Positions 22,956 through 52,239 of a stretch of 64,000 bases of DNA are shown here, in pieces. Each line of letters starts with the position of its first letter. The first letter of the stretch is position 1. The notes below the pieces were generated by a model. That model ran no database searches, was not told the origin of the DNA, and saw nothing but the letters and a program-made list of their open reading frames with translations. This DNA comes from Planctomycetota bacterium (GTDB taxonomy: Bacteria > Planctomycetota > Planctomycetia > Planctomycetales > Planctomycetaceae): the NCBI GenBank assembly GCA_018242525.1, contig JAFEBS010000008.1, positions 1 to 64,000 on the forward strand, written 5' to 3'. Made by a program: the position numbers and the translations under genes.

Positions 22956-23071
22956 ACCAAGCCGCGACAAATCTCGTTGAGCCCGGAGCCAGCGGCACCG
23001 CAAACAGCATTTGTTCTGAACCACTTGGGCTCGTCCGGAGCATCGGGACAGATTCTGTCCGCCCGATCTGG

Positions 23072-23130
23072 CGTTATTTTTTTAACGAATAAGACTTGCC
23101 GTCTCGCAGATGAGCGTTAAAATATTAACG
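23072..23130. promoter_or_regulatory. Two matching palindromes upstream of blaI (candidate BlaI operators)
   Basis: Site 1 (23072-23087) is CGTTA, six T, TAACG. Site 2 (23115-23130) is CGTTAA, AATA, TTAACG. Both are 16 bp with the same outer half-sites, and their centres are 43 bp apart, about four helical turns. They lie 116-174 bp before the blaI start. BlaI-type repressors bind dyads upstream of their own operon, so autoregulation is likely; the exact protein-DNA match is inference. Confidence 0.6.
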
Positions 23131-23245
23131 ACACTGGCGGGGACAATCGCTTCGCGTGAAGCAGGCCGCGTTCATGTGAAAAGTTGCGGCCGGTTGCACG
23201 GGGGCCGCATCCACCACGGAAAACCTGTGATTTCTGGAGTGAATC

Positions 23246-23629
23246 ATGCCGGAGCCCTCGGAGCTCAGTCGGCGCGAGCGGCAGATTATGGATGCCGTGT
23301 TTGCACTGGGGGAAGCGACCGTGAATCAGGTCGTCGAGGCGATTCCGTCGCCCCCCACGGCGATGGCCGTGCGCAGGACGATGCATATCCTGGAAGAAAA
23401 GGGGCATCTGCGACGGCGTGAAAGTGGCCGGGAAGTGGTCTACCTTCCGCGCCAGGCCAAGGGAAAAGCCGGTCGGCAGGCCTTTGAACAGGTTCTGGAA
23501 ACGTTTTTTGGCGGCTCATTGGAAGAAGCACTTGCCGCCCATTTGCATTCACGCAAGGATCAAGTTTCGGCTGAGGAACGCGCACGGCTGATCGCTCTCA
23601 TCGAACAAGCCCAGCAGGAGGGCCGCTGA
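23246..23629 (+). CDS. blaI: BlaI/MecI-family repressor
   Basis: This 127-residue protein has a winged helix at about 6-75: SELSRRERQIMDAVFALGEAT, the recognition-helix region AMAVRRTMHILEEKGHLRR, and the wing ESGREVVYLPR. The C-terminal helical dimerisation half contains the FFGGSLEEALAAHL stretch typical of BlaI. It is a cytosolic dimer expected to repress this operon until released by proteolysis triggered by the M56 partner. The gene ends 1 bp before the M56 start, so the two are translationally coupled. In planctomycetes such pairs are common and are not limited to beta-lactam response. Confidence 0.93.
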   Translation: MPEPSELSRRERQIMDAVFALGEATVNQVVEAIPSPPTAMAVRRTMHILEEKGHLRRRESGREVVYLPRQAKGKAGRQAFEQVLETFFGGSLEEALAAHLHSRKDQVSAEERARLIALIEQAQQEGR

Positions 23630-23630
23630 C

Positions 23631-26600
23631 ATGCTTCGCACAACTCTGTTCCTGGCAGTTCTGTTGAGTGCATCGGGTTTGTTGATGGCAGATGCCAGCC
23701 TCAAGGGGTCTGCGTTGCTGTTGCTGGCGGTCATCACGACCGTGATTCTGCGACGCGATTCGGCGGCGACCCGCCACCTGATCTGGATGCTCGCCATCGT
23801 GGCAATGCTGGTCTTGCCGTTCCTGTCGGCGACGTTGCCGCAATGGCGAGTCCTGCCAGATTGGGCCAGCCTTGCATCGCGGAATCCCGCAACAACAGCG
23901 ACAGGTCCAGTGGTTTCCGTACCCGTCGTCAACGGGATTGAAACGAATTCAACACCGATCTCCATTGACGCCGGAACGACGCCGGTCATGGATGATCAAC
24001 ACGTCAACGCAGTGGTGAAACAACCAGCAGCCGCGACACCGCAGTTCCATCCACCCTCGACCGCGGCAAGCAGTGCGTGGATCCCCGTTGTGTCGATCAT
24101 CTGGGGACTGGGTTGTTGCGGTCTTGTGCTGCGACTGCTGGCCGCCCGAATGCTGCTCTGGAACAGCGAGCGACATTCGACCGTGATCGCTCTGACAGCA
24201 CAAGCAGCTGGAGTCGCCGATCGTCTGGCTGTGGCCGTCGAAGCCGCATGTTTGCATCTCGGAATTCGCCACTCCATAACTCTGTTGGTCCACGCCGACA
24301 AGTCGATCCCCGTGGTCTGGGGACTATGGCGACATCGATTACTGCTTCCTGCGGCGGCACGAGATTGGAGCGACGAACAACTGCGATCCGTGTTGCTGCA
24401 TGAACTGGCTCACATCAAACGACGTGATGTGGCTGTTCAGTTGATGTCTCAAGTCGCGTGTGCCCTGCACTGGTTTAACCCGCTCGTCTGGTTCGCTGAC
24501 TGGCGAATATCCGTCGAGCGTGAGCGTGCGTGCGACGATCTGGTCCTGGCCAGTGGCGTGCGCCCGTCCATTTACGCCGGGCATTTGTTGCAGGTTGTCA
24601 CGGATCTTTCACCGGCGCGATGGACGCAATCCTGTGGACTGGCCATGGCCCGCCGCTCGTCGATTGAAAGTCGACTCGTCGCCGTCTTGAGCGGAAATCT
24701 GAATCGTCGTGGCGTGTCAGTCGCCCTCGCTGTGCTGGCAGGATTGGTTGGGATCGGCATCGCCGTCCCGATCGCCATGTTACGGGCGGCTGATTCAAAG
24801 CCGAAGGAAGCAATCGGTCCAGCGGCGTCCGCAGTGAAACCCAAACAGATCGACGATCAGAAGCTGTATGCCGAGTGGCGGGCGAATTCTCGAGTGAACG
24901 GAAACATCCCGGGCGGCAGACTCGTCCCACTGGCCCGCGTGCTGGCGAACTTCGTCGAAATGCATCCCAAGCACGATAAAGCCGCTGCCCTCGCAACACT
25001 CCTCAAACGGATCAATCCATCACGCGACTGGAAACCCGCAGACGCGGCCACACTTCTAGACGATTTGACCGCGATCGATCCCGAGTGGCGGCATTGGATG
25101 GAGTTTGAGGTGCGGGAGTCCCCGAGCGGGCCGATTCGGGTGCGCAAGTCGCCTCCGGCGGGTAGCCCGATCAAGGTCCGTAAGCCACTCCCCGCCGAAT
25201 TGGCCAACGTTGCCTGGGGGCCACCGGTGAAGAACGGCTTGCGGGCCGGGTGGCGCCGGGATCCGTCCAAAAACCAATACCCACTTGGTACGGCGCTGAA
25301 AGCATCGGTTGTGATTCAGAATACGGGCACGCAAACCATCGTGTTCCGTACGCCGGAATGGCATCAAGGCGGAAATCCGTCGGCGCACGATGCGAACGGG
25401 GATGATATCACCGTAACCGCCGGAGAAACGATGACGCTGATTCAACCGGTGACTCTCCGACTGGCTCCAGGTGAATCTGCCGATTTGGAAGGTCATGGCA
25501 TCGCCATCGGGACTCTCAGTCCTGATGATCCCGCTTGGGAAAAGCTGCGGATTGGTGCGGAGATCGAGGCAAATGCCGGAGATCAGGTTGTCTTTCAGCC
25601 GGCAGACGTGGTGGCGAGCGAAGAACAGTGGACACCCGACCGCAGAACGGTCGCAGAAATGTGGCAGGCGATCGTGCGTGTGCGAATTGACCTCGATCGC
25701 CCATTGCCTTCCGGCGCTGCGGACCGCGAGGCGCTGGTCCGCCGGGTAATTCTGGACCTGATTGGCGTGCCAGCAACGCCTGAAGAAATCAAAACGTTTG
25801 TCGCCGACAACTCTCCCGACCCGCTTGCCGCGCTCGGTCAGCGACTGATTCCTCGCGTCACTCCGTTTGACGGGAAGTTACCCGCCGGTGAACTCAAATT
25901 CCGCGTAACGGAGGCTGAACCAAACACTGCTAAACGCCAAGGGAACGCCGGTGGCGCTGACAATCAGAAGGCCCCACCGAAGGATCATCCCATCAAGCTG
26001 GACCCAGGCAGCGCTGCCGGACTGAAGTGGGGTGAAGCCGTCAATGGTCTGAGGGCGGCCGTCGCTTTTCGGTACTCCTCGCCGCAGCCGAAGGCTGGAG
26101 AATTGCCGGAGCTCTATATCGCGGTGCAGAACATTTCCAAGGGAGCGATCCGACTGAATGACTCGCTGGCGGAAACGCAGCCTCGAATGCTGTACATCAA
26201 GATTGACGGACGAACTGTCGCAGGAATCGGAGCCAAAGAACCCCGATTGGGCGATGTCACACTGCTATCCAACGAAGTTGCGTTGGTCCTGATGTATGCG
26301 GCAGAACCAATGGTCGACGGTCACTCGATCGGATCTGTCATGGCCCGGGATGTTCTCAATGACCCGCATCAGACACTGGTCGCCCATCTACAGATTGAGC
26401 AGGCACCTGCCGGGGCTTGGACTGGCAAACTTGTCACAAGTGAAACCAGCGGATCAATTGCGGTGGGCCAGCCACAGCCGAATGACAAGGAGGCGCAATC
26501 ACTCTACAGGGTATGGCAGCAGAATGCCCGGAAGAACGGCAGCATTCCCGGTGGCTTCATCGGCCAACTCCGCGAGACAATCAAGCGATTCATTCAACTG

Positions 26601-27944
26601 AATGCCACGGATATTGCCGGCGCCCCGTATGCAAAGAAAATGGAGGTATTGGTACCGCGTTTTGAGGCCTCGCACGACTGGACGCTGGCGGATGCAGTCC
26701 GTCTGTTGAATGACATTGCTGCGATTACCTCAGCCCCGCTGTCGATGGCTTTGGATGAAGTCAATTCCATCACGCTTGTTCGCGGTGCTCCCCTGCCACC
26801 AGAACTGGCGAATGCCCCGTGGGGGCAGCCGCAGCAAAGTGGATTGCGTCTGGCACTGATGATGGAGCCAGTTGCGAAGGAATATCGACTGGGAACGCCG
26901 CTCAAATCACGTCTGCTGATCCACAACTCAGGTCAAAATGTCGTTGTGTTCCGAACGCGGATGTGGCATCAACCTGGGCTCACTGCGACGGATGCCAAAG
27001 ATGCTGACATTACTGTGAACTCCGTTTCCCATTTGACGCGAGGACGCTTCCTGCCGATTCGACTCTGGCCCGGTGAATTCATCGAGTTGCGTTCGCCTGG
27101 CATCGGTGTCGGTTCGATGAAGAACCCTGTCGATTGGGAGAACGCTGGAATCGGTTCCTGGATTGAGGCGGCAGTGGGGGATGAAGTCACGGTGACCGCG
27201 GGTCCGGTGCCGCTGCACGACTGGAACGAGACCGCGGATCCCGAGTCTCGTTGGTGGGCGGAACTCATTAAGGCACGGCTCGAACTCGAATTGCCGTTTC
27301 CCGCCGATGCGGAAGAACGAAAGCATCTGGTCTATCGAGCCGGGATGGATTGCTTTGGCACTCCCATTTCCAGCAGCGAAATTGAAGCGTTTGTCACGGA
27401 CACCGGCCCGGATGCTCTGGAATCACTGGCCCGGCGGTTTGCTCAACATCCACGAGCCATACCAGCCGCCGGTTCGCTGACTTCAGGGACAACAACGTTT
27501 CGCGTTCTTCCCCCGGATCCGGATGCCGCCAAAAAGCCGCGGACCGCGAGCAATCCAGGTCGCTACACGCTCAGCGGCAAAGCGGTTCTCGCAGTCACAC
27601 GCCGGCCCGATGGAGAGCGGATTGTCAACGAAGCGTCCATTCAGCTTTCTGCGCCCGAGACAGCCCGGCCTTATGCAATCAAACTCGCCGACGGATACAA
27701 CACCTGGGCCGCAGCCTGGGTGCGGGAGACAGGAATCCTTTGGGTTCGGCAGCAGGGAATCATTCGGCAGTATGATTTCACGGATCCTCAAGCGGTCAAG
27801 GAATTGAGACTGGACGAAGCACAACACCTCGACCAGATCCCACAGCCCGTTCTGGATGCACTCCGCTCGGCAACCATGGAACCAGGTGCATCTCCACAAC
27901 GAGGGGCACCGGCTGCAAGCAGCGCTCCTGCGAAGCCATCTTGA
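23631..27944 (+). CDS. BlaR1-type M56 sensor protease with long duplicated extension
   Basis: This protein has 1437 residues. The N-terminal M56 part (1-390) has four membrane helices (about 5-20, 28-40, 50-68, 151-172), zinc motif HELAH (257-261), ERERACDD (296-303) and a helix at about 362-384. BlaR1 partners pass an external signal by cleaving BlaI. The remaining thousand residues form an extracytoplasmic region with a long tandem duplication. Unit A (about 412-740) opens LYAEWRANSRVNGNIPGG; unit B (about 958-1271) opens LYRVWQQNARKNGSIPGG. Both carry a beta module ending VVFRT-x-x-WHQ and a late segment resembling DUF1549 of PSD1 proteins (698-743 strong, 1228-1270 weak). No penicillin-binding sensor domain is seen, so the ligand is unknown. 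Confidence 0.88.
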   Translation: MLRTTLFLAVLLSASGLLMADASLKGSALLLLAVITTVILRRDSAATRHLIWMLAIVAMLVLPFLSATLPQWRVLPDWASLASRNPATTATGPVVSVPVVNGIETNSTPISIDAGTTPVMDDQHVNAVVKQPAAATPQFHPPSTAASSAWIPVVSIIWGLGCCGLVLRLLAARMLLWNSERHSTVIALTAQAAGVADRLAVAVEAACLHLGIRHSITLLVHADKSIPVVWGLWRHRLLLPAAARDWSDEQLRSVLLHELAHIKRRDVAVQLMSQVACALHWFNPLVWFADWRISVERERACDDLVLASGVRPSIYAGHLLQVVTDLSPARWTQSCGLAMARRSSIESRLVAVLSGNLNRRGVSVALAVLAGLVGIGIAVPIAMLRAADSKPKEAIGPAASAVKPKQIDDQKLYAEWRANSRVNGNIPGGRLVPLARVLANFVEMHPKHDKAAALATLLKRINPSRDWKPADAATLLDDLTAIDPEWRHWMEFEVRESPSGPIRVRKSPPAGSPIKVRKPLPAELANVAWGPPVKNGLRAGWRRDPSKNQYPLGTALKASVVIQNTGTQTIVFRTPEWHQGGNPSAHDANGDDITVTAGETMTLIQPVTLRLAPGESADLEGHGIAIGTLSPDDPAWEKLRIGAEIEANAGDQVVFQPADVVASEEQWTPDRRTVAEMWQAIVRVRIDLDRPLPSGAADREALVRRVILDLIGVPATPEEIKTFVADNSPDPLAALGQRLIPRVTPFDGKLPAGELKFRVTEAEPNTAKRQGNAGGADNQKAPPKDHPIKLDPGSAAGLKWGEAVNGLRAAVAFRYSSPQPKAGELPELYIAVQNISKGAIRLNDSLAETQPRMLYIKIDGRTVAGIGAKEPRLGDVTLLSNEVALVLMYAAEPMVDGHSIGSVMARDVLNDPHQTLVAHLQIEQAPAGAWTGKLVTSETSGSIAVGQPQPNDKEAQSLYRVWQQNARKNGSIPGGFIGQLRETIKRFIQLNATDIAGAPYAKKMEVLVPRFEASHDWTLADAVRLLNDIAAITSAPLSMALDEVNSITLVRGAPLPPELANAPWGQPQQSGLRLALMMEPVAKEYRLGTPLKSRLLIHNSGQNVVVFRTRMWHQPGLTATDAKDADITVNSVSHLTRGRFLPIRLWPGEFIELRSPGIGVGSMKNPVDWENAGIGSWIEAAVGDEVTVTAGPVPLHDWNETADPESRWWAELIKARLELELPFPADAEERKHLVYRAGMDCFGTPISSSEIEAFVTDTGPDALESLARRFAQHPRAIPAAGSLTSGTTTFRVLPPDPDAAKKPRTASNPGRYTLSGKAVLAVTRRPDGERIVNEASIQLSAPETARPYAIKLADGYNTWAAAWVRETGILWVRQQGIIRQYDFTDPQAVKELRLDEAQHLDQIPQPVLDALRSATMEPGASPQRGAPAASSAPAKPS

Positions 27945-28272: not shown

Positions 28273-29613
28273 ATGATGAATCAAGCTTCTCGACGACGGT
28301 TTCTGACCGCATCAGGATTTGGTGGGATCGGCTTGTTCTGGCAGCAGACAATCGGACGCATTGCGGCCGGAGCCGATTCGAACGGCACCGCCAAGTCCGT
28401 CATCCTGATCTTCAACTGTGGTGCCCCCAGTCACATCGATCTGTGGGACCTGAAGCCGCAGGCGACGGACACAGTCCGCGGTCCCTACAAACCGATTTCC
28501 ACGTCGGCTGCGGGAATTCAGATATCGGAATTGATTCCTGGATTGGCCCGGCATGCCCACCGGTTTTCCATCGTTCGCAGCGTCCATCATGCACATGCCA
28601 GCCACAATGCCGGAATGTACTGGTCCATCGTCGGTCGGCCCTACCCGATGGACAGCACGCTGATTAACCCCAGTCGCAACGACATGCCCAGCTTCGGCAC
28701 CCTGGCCGGTTGGCTGGCACAGCGGGACGGATACAGTGGCTCACTGCCGCCATACGTGATTACACCCGCTCCACACTGTGACAGCACTGTTTATCTCACC
28801 CCGGGTCAGTACGGTGGCAGCCTGGGACCGGCCTTCGATCCCCTGGTCCTGAATGCAGATCCGAATTCACCGAGTTTCTCCGTTCCCAATCTAGGGCCCG
28901 TCGAGGGGATTTCCACACAGCGGCAGGAACAGCGCCAGTCCCTGCTGGGGCAATTGGGGAATCGCGTGATCCCAGTCTCAGCGGCCGGAACCGACGATTT
29001 CGAGATCAATCGATCCAAAGCTTTGTCACTGATGGGATCGACCGCCGCACGTGAGGCCTTTGACTTGTCTCAGGAATCCCCCTCCCTTCGCGACCGTTAT
29101 GGTCGACACACCTGGGGTCAGTCTCATCTGCTGGCTCGTCGGCTGGTCGAAGCGGGTGTCAGGTTCGTCACGACAGTGAACGGACAAAGCATTATCTGGG
29201 ATACTCACCAGGACAATTTTGGACGACTGGAAAAGACCCTGGTTCCACCAATGGAGCGCGCGTTTTCGACATTGCTGGATGATCTTGTCGAGCGGGGACT
29301 GCTGGACTCCACGCTGGTCATCTGGATGGGTGATTTCGGCCGCACCCCGAAAATCAATGCTAATGCCGGCCGGGATCACTGGCCACAGTGTTACTCGATG
29401 GTTCTGGCCGGAGGTGGGATTCAGGGCGGGCAGGTCGTCGGTGAATCAGACAGTACGGGGGCCATTCCGAAATCGCGGCCGGTGAGTCCGGCCGACATTC
29501 ACGCCACCGTTTTCAGCGCACTGGGGTATGATCCTCGCGGGATTTCATATCATCTGGCAGATGGCCGACCCTTCCAGCTTTCAGACGGCGAAGTGATTCG
29601 CGAACTGCTGTAG
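28273..29613 (+). CDS. DUF1501 protein, Tat-exported
   Basis: This 446-residue DUF1501 protein carries a twin-arginine signal (SRRRFLTASGFGGIG, 6-20). Family blocks are IFNCGAPSHIDLWDLKP, IVRSVHHAHASHNAGMYW, HLLARRLVEAGVRFVTT, WDTHQDNF, LVIWMGDFGRTPKIN, GRDHWPQCYSMVLAGGGIQGG and DIHATVFSALGYDP. It is shorter than the other two copies here. No PSD1 gene is adjacent. It is followed after 154 bp by the TlpA lipoprotein gene on the same strand. The catalytic role is not established for the family. Confidence 0.92.
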   Translation: MMNQASRRRFLTASGFGGIGLFWQQTIGRIAAGADSNGTAKSVILIFNCGAPSHIDLWDLKPQATDTVRGPYKPISTSAAGIQISELIPGLARHAHRFSIVRSVHHAHASHNAGMYWSIVGRPYPMDSTLINPSRNDMPSFGTLAGWLAQRDGYSGSLPPYVITPAPHCDSTVYLTPGQYGGSLGPAFDPLVLNADPNSPSFSVPNLGPVEGISTQRQEQRQSLLGQLGNRVIPVSAAGTDDFEINRSKALSLMGSTAAREAFDLSQESPSLRDRYGRHTWGQSHLLARRLVEAGVRFVTTVNGQSIIWDTHQDNFGRLEKTLVPPMERAFSTLLDDLVERGLLDSTLVIWMGDFGRTPKINANAGRDHWPQCYSMVLAGGGIQGGQVVGESDSTGAIPKSRPVSPADIHATVFSALGYDPRGISYHLADGRPFQLSDGEVIRELL

Positions 29614-48305: not shown

Positions 48306-51300
48306 CTACTTGTTCAACACTTCGTCCAGATTCATCAGTTCGTTGGTCAGCATGGTCCAGGCGGCCAGGGTCGCGGGATCCAGGGTGGCATCGGCCTTGG
48401 ATTCTCCTTCGGCGATCAGCTTCTTGGCGTCGTCTGCGTGGGCCTGATAGTACGTCAGCAATTCTTTCAGCGAATTCTGGACGATGGTCAGTTCGTCGGC
48501 GCGCAGCGGGCGAGCCAGCAGGCGTTTGGCCAACAGGTTCAAACGGTCGGCCTCAGAGGCTTCGGGACTCTTCAGAATCGATTGAGCCAGGAAGCGGGCC
48601 GCTTCCACGAATTGCACGTCGTTCAATGTGACCAGGGCCTGCAGCGGCGTATCTGTCCGTTCGCGGCGGACCGTACAGGTTTCGCGGGCCGGCGCATTGA
48701 AGATCTCCATCGACGCAGGCGGTGCCGATCGCTTGATAAACGTGTACATGCTGCGACGATACAGGTTGTCACCCGTGTCACGTCGATAGTCGCGGGTGTT
48801 GCTGCCGATCATCGCGACCGCCTCCCATACCCCTTCCGGTTGATACGGTTTGACACTCGGCCCACCAATCTTCGGCACCAGCAGTCCACTGGCTGCGAGT
48901 GCGTAGTCACGAATCATTTCGGCGTCCATGCGGAACCGCGGTCCGCGTGAAATCAGCCGGTTTTGCGGATCTTTTTCCAGCTTCTCTTTAGTCACCACGG
49001 CCGACTGGCGGTAGGTCGCGGACGACACGAGCAGCTTGTAGAACTTTTTGATGTCCCAGCCCGATTCGCGGAATTCGACCGCCATCCAGTCGAGCAGTTC
49101 CTGATCGCTGGGCAATTCACCGGCAATGCCGAAGTCACCCGATGTGCGGACGATGCCCGCTCCAAACAATTCCTGCCAGAACCGATTCACGGTGACGCGC
49201 GCCGTGAGGGGATGATCCGACCTGAGCAGCCATTGGGCCAATCCCAGCCGGTTCTTGGGCGCGTCGTCCGGGAATGCCGGCAGCGAGGCGGGAGTCATCG
49301 GCTTCACCGGGTCACGCCGCTTGTCGTATTCACCTCGAAACAGAATATAGGCCATGGCTTCTTCGTTCTTTTCCTGCATCACGTGGGCGATCGTGCCGCG
49401 GGCCTTGATCGCATTCAGTTCCCCTTCCAGGGCCGCGACTTTGGCGGTTCGTTCCTGGAAAGTGGTGTCCGTGTCGGCCAGCCACCAGGGATAGACTTCG
49501 TTCTTTTCGGCGTCGGTCCGCTGGTCGGGAGCCTTGGCAAGGATGGCGGTGAACCGCGTCGTCTTGGCCATCGATTCCACTTCGGACGGTGACAGGGCTC
49601 GCCTGAACAACCGCAGGTCCTGGATGCCGGCCCCACTGAGTGGCTCACCGGCCGTGCGCTGGCCGATCCGAAATGGAACCTTGGTCCGGATGGAGCTCTT
49701 CAATTGGTCATTTTCGACATTGGTCTTTTGCAATTGACCGTTGTAATAGACTTTGACACCGGCGGCCTTGGCGGAACCGTCGTACGTGACGGCGACATGC
49801 GTCCACTCGTTCCCCTTGATCTGGGCCTGGGCCACGACTTTCAACGCGTCTGCCGACCACGCATTGATCATGTGCATCCCGACTCGCCGTCCCTGGACCC
49901 AGAAGTCCCAACCCTGGTAACCTCCGGGCTTGTCCATGCGAGCCGCGATGGCTCCCTGGGAATCGTTCGGCTGTACGCGAATCCATGCGGAACAGGTGAA
50001 CGGCTGATCCTTCTCGAAGTCGCCGACGTCCGCCAGATCGCAGGCGGCACCCTGGACCTGCAGGGCCTTGGCCCCGACACCATCGATCCATTGAATCGAA
50101 TCGTTCAAGGCCACATCGCGGGACTGGCCATCAATGATCATCCTCGTGGACTTGCCCGAGCCCTCGTTGAGGGCCGCGTGCAGCACAAGATCTTTCGTCG
50201 CCACCGTACCCAACGATTCTGCAGTGGCCGAGGCGAGCCATTCGTCGAACGCGGGACGGGCTTCCCGGCGACGGGCCTCAACCTGCTGGCGGGCCGCAGC
50301 GATTTCGCCATCAAGTGCCGCAAATCGTGTGCGATCTTCGGCCAGCGGCACGGTGATGATCGGGGGCGTGTCCTTGACGTTACCGTCCATCGCGTTCTGG
50401 GTCGTGTTGTTAAAGAACGCCGCCAGCGAATAGAAGTCTTTCATGGTGATCGGATCGAACTTGTGGTCGTGGCAGACCGCGCATCCAACCGTCATTCCCA
50501 GCCAGACTTGCCCCAGGGTGTCCGTCCGATCGCGAGCATACAGGACGTAATACTCCTCGGGGATGGTCCCCCCTTCGCTGGTTGTGATGTTGCAGCGGTT
50601 GAACCCGGATTCGATCTGTTGATCCAGCGTCCGATTCGGGAGCAGGTCCCCTGCCAGTTGTTCGATGGTGAACTGGTCGAAGGGAGTGTTCCGGTTGAAC
50701 GCGGCAATTACGCTGTCGCGATAGGTCCACATTTCCCGAAAGTTGTCAAAATGAATCCCGTGCGTGTCAGCATACCGGGCGGCGTCGAGCCAGTAGCGGC
50801 CGCGATGCTCGCCCCAGTGCTTCGATTCCATCAGTTTGTCGACATACGCTTCGTAGGCATTCGGCGACTTGTCAGCGACAAACGCGTCGACCTGTTCCGG
50901 GGTGGGAGGGAGTCCGATCAGGTCGAGGCTCAGTCGACGGGCCAGTGTCCGACGATCCGCTTCCGGCGCCGGGGTCAGGCCAACCGCTTCGAGCCTGGCG
51001 AGCACAAATGCATCGATCGGATTCCGCACCCAGGCCGAGTTCTTCACCTGGGGGATGGCAGGCCGGGTCGGGGCAATGAACGACCAGTGCGGCTGGTATT
51101 CCGCGCCGCTGGCAATCCATTTGCGCAGCAGTTCCTTTTGCTGGTCGGTCAGCGCCTTTTTGGTCACCGGCGGAGGCATGACTTCATCGGGATCCTTGGA
51201 CAGGATGCGATGCATCATGCCGCTTTCGTCCGGCTTGCCGGCGATGATGGCCTTCATCGACGCGGCAGCATCCGCGCGGTCTAACCGCAGATCCGCCTTG

Positions 51301-51458
51301 CGCGACGCACTGTCCGGCCCGTGACAGGCAAAGCAGTTGTCAGCCAGGATCGGGCGGATGTCGCGATTGTAGACGATGGTGGTGTCTTGCGCGGACGCGA
51401 TGGCCGTCGAGGCGAGTGCCAGAACCGCCACCAGCGTGGGATGTCGAAGCAGCTTCAT
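48306..51458 (-). CDS. PSD1 protein: cytochrome c, DUF1549, LamG-like, DUF1553
   Basis: This 1050-residue exported protein has a signal at about 1-22 (ends ASAQ). A planctomycete cytochrome c segment carries CFACH (42-46) followed by KADLRLD. DUF1549 (about 145-350) contains LARRLSLDLIGLPPTPEQVD, WLDAARYADTHG and a second CAVCHDHKFDP (326-330). A LamG/concanavalin-like insert spans about 423-632 (PFTCSAWIR, GLDLVFRR-like LRLFRRALSPSEVE), then DUF1553 (about 720-1010) has LTARVTVNRFWQELFG, SSATYRQS and RERTDTPLQALVTLND. The enzymatic activity is unknown for the family. It lies between the GntR gene (61 bp upstream) and the DUF1501 gene. Confidence 0.95.
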   Translation of the reverse strand: MKLLRHPTLVAVLALASTAIASAQDTTIVYNRDIRPILADNCFACHGPDSASRKADLRLDRADAAASMKAIIAGKPDESGMMHRILSKDPDEVMPPPVTKKALTDQQKELLRKWIASGAEYQPHWSFIAPTRPAIPQVKNSAWVRNPIDAFVLARLEAVGLTPAPEADRRTLARRLSLDLIGLPPTPEQVDAFVADKSPNAYEAYVDKLMESKHWGEHRGRYWLDAARYADTHGIHFDNFREMWTYRDSVIAAFNRNTPFDQFTIEQLAGDLLPNRTLDQQIESGFNRCNITTSEGGTIPEEYYVLYARDRTDTLGQVWLGMTVGCAVCHDHKFDPITMKDFYSLAAFFNNTTQNAMDGNVKDTPPIITVPLAEDRTRFAALDGEIAAARQQVEARRREARPAFDEWLASATAESLGTVATKDLVLHAALNEGSGKSTRMIIDGQSRDVALNDSIQWIDGVGAKALQVQGAACDLADVGDFEKDQPFTCSAWIRVQPNDSQGAIAARMDKPGGYQGWDFWVQGRRVGMHMINAWSADALKVVAQAQIKGNEWTHVAVTYDGSAKAAGVKVYYNGQLQKTNVENDQLKSSIRTKVPFRIGQRTAGEPLSGAGIQDLRLFRRALSPSEVESMAKTTRFTAILAKAPDQRTDAEKNEVYPWWLADTDTTFQERTAKVAALEGELNAIKARGTIAHVMQEKNEEAMAYILFRGEYDKRRDPVKPMTPASLPAFPDDAPKNRLGLAQWLLRSDHPLTARVTVNRFWQELFGAGIVRTSGDFGIAGELPSDQELLDWMAVEFRESGWDIKKFYKLLVSSATYRQSAVVTKEKLEKDPQNRLISRGPRFRMDAEMIRDYALAASGLLVPKIGGPSVKPYQPEGVWEAVAMIGSNTRDYRRDTGDNLYRRSMYTFIKRSAPPASMEIFNAPARETCTVRRERTDTPLQALVTLNDVQFVEAARFLAQSILKSPEASEADRLNLLAKRLLARPLRADELTIVQNSLKELLTYYQAHADDAKKLIAEGESKADATLDPATLAAWTMLTNELMNLDEVLNK

Positions 51459-51494
51459 GGTTGTTTCATCCGTTGGTTGCTCTAGGAAACCAGA

Positions 51495-51517
51495 CCGACG
51501 CTGGCAGCGTCGGCTAC
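51495..51517 (-). repeat. REP-like hairpin with GTAG head
   Basis: Minus strand: GTAG, stem CCGACGC, loop TGCCA, stem GCGTCGG. It lies 2 bp after the GntR stop and 36 bp before the PSD1 start, so it may attenuate read-through. The 19-bp hairpin is identical to the one at 11202-11220. Confidence 0.7.
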
Positions 51518-51519
51518 GA

Positions 51520-52239
51520 TTACTTGGTCTGGGGATTGGTTGTGGATGCGGGCAGGGCCTTGCACCAGTGCCGGATCCCGGAACGGATGTGACGCGACAT
51601 TGCTCGCGCGGATTCCGTTCGGTTTTCGGCCAGCAGTGCGTCAACGATGGCCAGGTGCTCATGCGATTCTTCGGTCAGTCGGTGATAGTCCTGACGTTCA
51701 CTGTCGTGTTCCCACGACACATCGCGAAAGGTCCGAAACAGAATTTTCAACCGATTCAGTTCATTGGCCAGGAACGTATTGCCACAGGAACCCGCGATCA
51801 AGTCGTGCAGACGGCTGTCGACTTCGCGGGCCTTGGTGATGAATCGGGCACCGGTTCGTGAAGTAGGCGAAGTCAGTCGTTTCAGATCTTCGGCCAACCC
51901 CTGCAATATTGGGCGATCGATGCGACCGCAGGCCGTGCGTGTTGCTTCACACTCCAGCGCCTTGCGGACCTGGCAGATTTCCCGCACGTCGCGAGCCGAG
52001 ACGCGACGGACAATCGCGCCGCGATTCGGCTGCAGATCGATCACACCAATTCCGGCCAGCGTGATCAGCGCTTCGCGAATGGGAGTGTGACTGACCCCAA
52101 ATCGGTCGGCCAATTCCTGAGTCACCAGATGCTGTCCCGCCTGGATCTGTCCATGGAAGACATCCGTCAACAACGACTCGACAATCGTCCGTCGCCGTTG
52201 ACCGTGATCGCATTCCAGTTGGCGTGCAGGTCGGGGCAT
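51520..52239 (-). CDS. GntR/FadR-type (FCD) transcriptional regulator
   Basis: The 239-residue protein has an N-terminal winged helix (about 18-78) with LVTQELADRFGVSHTPIREALITLAGIGVIDLQPNRGAIVR, quoted here only as its key spans LADRFGVSHTPIREAL and NRGAIVR. The FCD ligand domain (about 90-225) contains a metal-type His pattern (LHDLIAGSCGN and RHIRSGIRHW). FCD regulators respond to organic acids or sugar acids and usually control adjacent catabolic genes. It is the first gene of the run GntR, PSD1, DUF1501. Two palindromes upstream (52335-52367) are likely operators. It is divergent from the TPR-CHAT gene. Confidence 0.92.
   Translation of the reverse strand: MPRPARQLECDHGQRRRTIVESLLTDVFHGQIQAGQHLVTQELADRFGVSHTPIREALITLAGIGVIDLQPNRGAIVRRVSARDVREICQVRKALECEATRTACGRIDRPILQGLAEDLKRLTSPTSRTGARFITKAREVDSRLHDLIAGSCGNTFLANELNRLKILFRTFRDVSWEHDSERQDYHRLTEESHEHLAIVDALLAENRTESARAMSRHIRSGIRHWCKALPASTTNPQTK

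Follow-up and report, generated by a model that had tools for sequence, protein, structure and literature searches.

What is a piece of PSCyt2 (DUF1549, PF07583), a domain of PSCyt1-PSCyt2-PSD1 proteins, doing within a putative regulatory membrane protease? The question is raised by the window, the whole stretch of 64,000 nucleotides of planctomycete DNA analysed here, in which an M56 protein and a PSD1 protein had been reported in a preliminary description to share a short segment, taken there as a mobile module. PSCyt2/PSD1 proteins belong to the most numerous planctomycete families, with 95 PF07583 matches in the source genome (two of them being the M56 modules), and their function is entirely unknown according to PMC5615132. 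The passages of one paper naming DUF1549, PF07583 or PSCyt2 make no mention of an M56 protein containing the N-terminal part of PSCyt2 (hereafter the PSCyt2-N module).

The BlaI-M56 gene pair

The M56 gene (23631..27944, forward strand) encodes a protein of 1437 amino acids, whose peptidase domain with membrane helices (23688..24683, forward strand; PF05569, 114.8 bits, residues 20-351) displays the HExxH motif as HELAH at residue 257. Its hydrophobic stretches are located at residues 6-40, 50-69, 153-171 and, as the last one, 364-382. The adjoining gene, ending at position 23629, encodes a BlaI/MecI-type repressor (Penicillinase_R; 23246..23629, forward strand; PF03965, 84.4 bits). The membrane-bound M56 protease with HExxH, the C-terminal part following the last membrane helix, the BlaI gene directly upstream and the dyads before the repressor gene are all features common to the BlaR1/MecR1 and BlaI/MecI systems. 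Unlike BlaR1/MecR1, the M56 protein carries two units made of a beta-sandwich and a PSCyt2-N module instead of the penicillin-binding domain. A Pfam scan of the protein retrieved no penicillin-binding sensor domain and its score with the NCBIfam BlaR1 model (69.7) is far below the cut-off of 400. Therefore, judging from its sequence, the M56 protein is BlaR1-like, and not BlaR1.

Two operator-like dyads are found upstream of the repressor gene. Dyad 1, GCGTTATTTTTTTAACGA (23071..23088, forward strand), shows two mismatches to GCGTTAA-N4-TTAACGC, and dyad 2, GCGTTAAAATATTAACGA (23114..23131, forward strand), located 43 bp after it, shows a single one. In the window alone, finding two matches with up to three mismatches is within chance expectation, as shown by 29 of 100 shuffles, and, therefore, the case for these dyads is based on their position and recurrence. 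Indeed, the two dyads are located upstream of the blaI-type gene, approximately 43-44 bp apart, and at least one dyad with up to two mismatches precedes it in 16 of the 18 loci compared from Planctomycetes and Verrucomicrobia, while a BlaI with 72-92% identity precedes most of the orthologous M56 genes. In the 8.45 Mb genome, dyads 1 and 2 are the only sites matching the pattern GCGTTAWNNNNWTAACGC with at most one mismatch, suggesting that the blaI-M56 pair is probably self-regulated. All genomic matches to GCGTTAWNNNNWTAACGC taken together number 21, fewer than the 74 obtained with the reversed pattern as a control. A BlaI regulon reaching the PSD1 genes was rejected, as no further site with at most one mismatch occurs genome-wide.

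Homology of the M56 segment to PSCyt2

The comparison protein is encoded by a PSD1 gene on the reverse strand (48306-51662), with a complete PSCyt2 domain at 50394..51023 (reverse strand; PF07583, 279 bits; supported by alignment A4 and an AF2 model). The ungapped match of 46 residues with 23 identities that had been reported between the two proteins exists and corresponds to their best 46-residue window (BLOSUM62 score 116). Its coordinates in the PSD1 gene (50823-50960) are correct, and its start in the M56 gene had been set one codon late at 25722, which is D698, since the initial "ADRE" begins at residue 697 (25719). Taken literally, 25722-25859 and 50823-50960 yield 2 identities, and the shift of one codon restores the pair aligned by BLASTP.

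The similarity extends beyond the segment first noted, with BLASTP aligning M56 residues 680-740 at 44% identity (E 2e-10). The search against PF07583 scored 53 bits with the whole M56 protein and 42.1 bits with a 90-residue piece containing the segment, the gathering cut-off being 29.8 bits, and a profile-profile comparison by hhalign, in which 12 aligned units were compared with 18 PSCyt2 domains, gave a probability of 98.8% and an E of 7.5e-17 over 69 columns (approximately M56 residues 677-743). Based on PF07583, hhalign and the four predicted helices, copy 1 of the module spans approximately residues 675-743 (25653..25859, forward strand). The idea that this likeness reflects chance or composition has a negligible probability: 60 shuffled M56 proteins peak at 15 identities and a score of 48, the same helices are predicted in both families, and the module recurs in about two dozen proteins. 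Together with the Pfam score above cut-off and the hhalign E-value, the shuffle control rules out a chance resemblance.

The weaker second copy that had been suspected is also real (BLASTP residues 1212-1272, 31% identity, E 8.6e-6) and extends over approximately residues 1206-1275 (27246..27455, forward strand). Scanned alone against PF07583, copy 2 reaches 23.3 bits, under the 29.8-bit cut-off, and it scores 102.6 bits with a segment profile that was built with this copy included.

The full-length PF07583 profile (209 positions) is not matched, as the M56 segment covers only positions ~5-67. The shared part consists of the first ~70 residues of PSCyt2, with four predicted helices and common R, P, R, R, D, G, F, D and P positions. 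In contrast to PSCyt2, the M56 copies sit within a beta-sandwich and stop short of the other ~140 residues. The CxxCH heme motif is located near the end of the PSCyt2 domain, and its invariant C181, C184 and H185 (numbering of alignment A4) lie outside the shared part. The M56 segment is thus a homologous fragment of PSCyt2, its N-terminal third, and not a PSCyt2 domain; a cytochrome role of the module is ruled out, as the shared part has no CxxCH. The PP pair and D4 of PSCyt2 are not kept in the M56 modules, perhaps because these residues contact the part of PSCyt2 that is missing there.

Two side observations concern PSCyt2 profiles. A cytochrome-like protein of 796 amino acids (L019 3665-6052; G000:C15:103287-103463) shows an N-terminal PF07583 match of 23.5 bits, below the cut-off. 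In addition, positions 30-96 of the profile of the window's PSCyt2 domain (50394-51023) give non-significant matches to the phycobilisome linker ApcE (E 0.16 and 0.24), which are at best a lead.

A composite unit with the module within its beta-sandwich

The module is part of a unit of ~360 residues, composed of a helical part, a beta-sandwich, the PSCyt2-N module and a closing strand, which occurs twice in the M56 protein. According to the MAFFT alignment of the units, unit 1 comprises residues 404-771 (24840..25943, forward strand) and unit 2 residues 949-1304 (26475..27542, forward strand), and they are 37% identical. A conserved C-terminal "tail" domain is located 3' of unit 2 (27462..27884, forward strand), scoring 175.8 bits with a tail profile that included this sequence.

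The AF2 model of unit 1 (pLDDT 83.1, pTM 0.77) displays strands flanking the module on both sides, and module helices at positions 271-284, 293-308, 314-321 and 328-339 of the unit. In the PSCyt2 model, of modest quality (pLDDT 72.8, pTM 0.53), the first helices are placed at 2-13, 24-36, 42-50 and 56-66. Once the hhalign offset of 272 is applied, both models agree within ~3 residues at the level of their predicted helix boundaries. The beta-sandwich of unit 1 lies 5' of the module (25179..25622, forward strand) and is supported by a profile match, the AF2 strands and the alignment with Ig-like folds. These Ig-like PDB folds align with approximately residues 131 to 357 of the unit over ~113 residues (Z 6-7), skipping the module helices and using the strand 3' of them. 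In its predicted overall fold, the unit resembles Ig-like and BsuPI-like beta-sandwiches (e.g., 3isy and 4kkp), at a Z of 6-7 that denotes a common fold only and is below the threshold separating relatives from common arrangements, and it differs from them by the helical insertion ahead of the last strand. Fold searches retrieved only common Ig-like folds for the unit and no convincing solved structure for PSCyt2.

In approximately 30 module-bearing copies, the distance between sandwich and tail is 79-123 residues and the module is always present. The best evidence for an insertion comes from beta-sandwiches devoid of it. One is found in locus L059 (genome G219), with a sandwich-to-tail gap of 24 residues, and another is the first of the three copies in the L100 protein (G325), with a gap of 9; the first copy in G224 is likewise insert-free, judged by eye. 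G325 and G224 thus combine insert-free and module-bearing copies within one protein, and the tail domain also directly follows insert-free beta-sandwiches. The sandwich, the module and the tail were each given a profile of their own because a plain alignment pushes scattered residues of the insert-free L059 protein into the module region. These profiles were built from module-bearing copies, whose own scores are consequently inflated, in contrast to those of L059, absent from all of them; the first L100 copy is absent from the sandwich and tail profiles. Given the insert-free copies, of which two share a protein with module-bearing ones, the module can be regarded as an insertion ahead of the last strand of the sandwich, a loss of the module in the insert-free copies being also possible. 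An M56 protein with two composite domains, in which a beta-sandwich is interrupted by a PSCyt2-N module, can be considered practically certain.

Distribution and history of the unit

The units are present in 19 of the 170 genomes from the family of the source organism, in a genome from another family of the same class (G159) and in Verrucomicrobia MAGs, one of which is labelled Akkermansia muciniphila, a doubtful label. All hosts whose gene start could be read are BlaR1-type M56 proteins. A contig search with the whole M56 protein found no match, and one with close units recovered nine loci. Some of the unit matches are pieces at contig edges or apparently broken (L096, L101, L102 and L103), and in-frame stops occur in unit-bearing frames of L110 (5965-5969) and L103 (7577-8095) in G256 and G324, possibly reflecting decay or assembly errors. 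Very long open frames were also observed: L055 (139-11961) encodes a unit-bearing protein of 3941 amino acids with several sandwich-like repeats, and the frame of a PSCyt2 protein in L058 (7690-18000) is open over at least 3437 amino acids (3997 in the genome search).

In a tree of 33 M56 and 18 PSCyt2 modules, based on few columns, both groups are located on opposite sides of one branch (support 100/98). This single branch fits one transfer, after which the module would have been duplicated together with the whole unit. The transfer likely proceeded from PSCyt2 to the M56 protein, given that the M56 form is rare and greatly outnumbered by PSCyt2. The branch between the two groups is, nevertheless, long (0.95 changes per column), which could also be expected if both families had independently drawn on an older and more widespread helical module. 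The weak PF07583 match in the cytochrome-like protein (C15:103287, 23.5 bits) and the non-significant phycobilisome linker matches to the PSCyt2 profile (E 0.16-0.24) would be compatible with such an ancestor. However, no third family with a significant module was found in the searches made, and the rarity of the M56 form beside the very common PSCyt2 also speaks against this origin, which we consider improbable.

The segment looks exchangeable, as a building block would be: its helices are its own, some copies of the host domain have it and others do not, and it is found apart from the remainder of PSCyt2. To this extent, the preliminary description holds. Nevertheless, the module belongs to a larger unit that is itself repeated, rather than being a free insertion, and there is no sign of repeated spread. 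The survey of M56 proteins showed it in only one of about 15 in the source genome, so that "mobile" applies only in the evolutionary sense of domain shuffling. Repeated mobility among M56 proteins is not supported, given this count and the single branch towards PSCyt2.

Possible role of the module

The M56 protein can be proposed as the BlaR1-like sensor of the BlaI-M56 pair, with a mechanism deduced from its family membership. By analogy with BlaR1, whose mechanism is described in PMC9834060, the module following the last hydrophobic stretch (364-382) would be on the extracytoplasmic side. A signal from outside would change the extension of the M56 protein, the changed extension would activate the protease, and the activated protease would inactivate the repressor, leading to the derepression of the operon. 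More speculatively, the module might be a surface of the sensor domain that is exposed for contacts, and its recruitment from PSCyt2 would be explained by an earlier use there in docking or packing within the cell envelope. As a whole, a BlaR1-like sensor with a recruited PSCyt2-N module in its sensor domain is the explanation that we favor by a narrow preference, the restriction of the predicted BlaI sites to its own operon in the whole genome counting against it.

The module is most likely part of the sensing surface, a passive structural role being the main rival. As a contact surface of the sensor domain, it is proposed here only tentatively. A binding element, as suggested in the preliminary description, would be plausible. 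The rival role, a passive spacer or a stabilizing addition to the beta-sandwich that itself has neither ligand nor partner, would agree with the structural appearance of the positions conserved across both families, with the insert-free copies of the same domain in open M56 genes, and with the dyads, which are kept with or without the module, as in L059. However, the conservation of the module about equals that of the sandwich (mean pairwise identities of 41% and 44%, respectively), and it is retained by the majority of carriers, frequently as two copies, an observation that constrains the fold and cannot tell packing from binding. This passive role seems less likely than not.

The module could also be a docking piece common to the envelope cytochrome (PSCyt/PSD1) proteins and the M56 sensor. 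The residues conserved across the two families have the appearance of a scaffold, and the PP pair of PSCyt2 is not kept in the M56 proteins; a common partner is therefore not indicated. The genomic context provides hints only: in G004 and G322 (L002 and L071/L099), the next gene downstream of the M56 gene encodes a PSD1 protein, followed by a DUF1501 gene in G322, and a DUF1501 gene is also found downstream of the M56 gene in the window (28273-29613). In the remaining loci, the neighbors of the M56 gene are unrelated or convergent, and a consistent PSD1 linkage was discarded, as only 2 of ~20 loci have PSD1 as the immediate downstream neighbor in the same orientation. Such docking is quite doubtful.

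The find itself is of the usual sort of domain shuffling. Nevertheless, the occurrence of the first four PSCyt2 helices alone in another protein delimits, in this abundant planctomycete family, a domain suited to expression and testing. The M56 protein is a BlaR1-like sensor without a recognized penicillin binder as its sensor part, and the predicted operator makes this sensor testable. If the module presented the same docking surface as the PSCyt2 proteins, the M56 sensor would compete for, and thus measure, their free partner, and the cell would read out the state of the PSCyt/PSD1 family.
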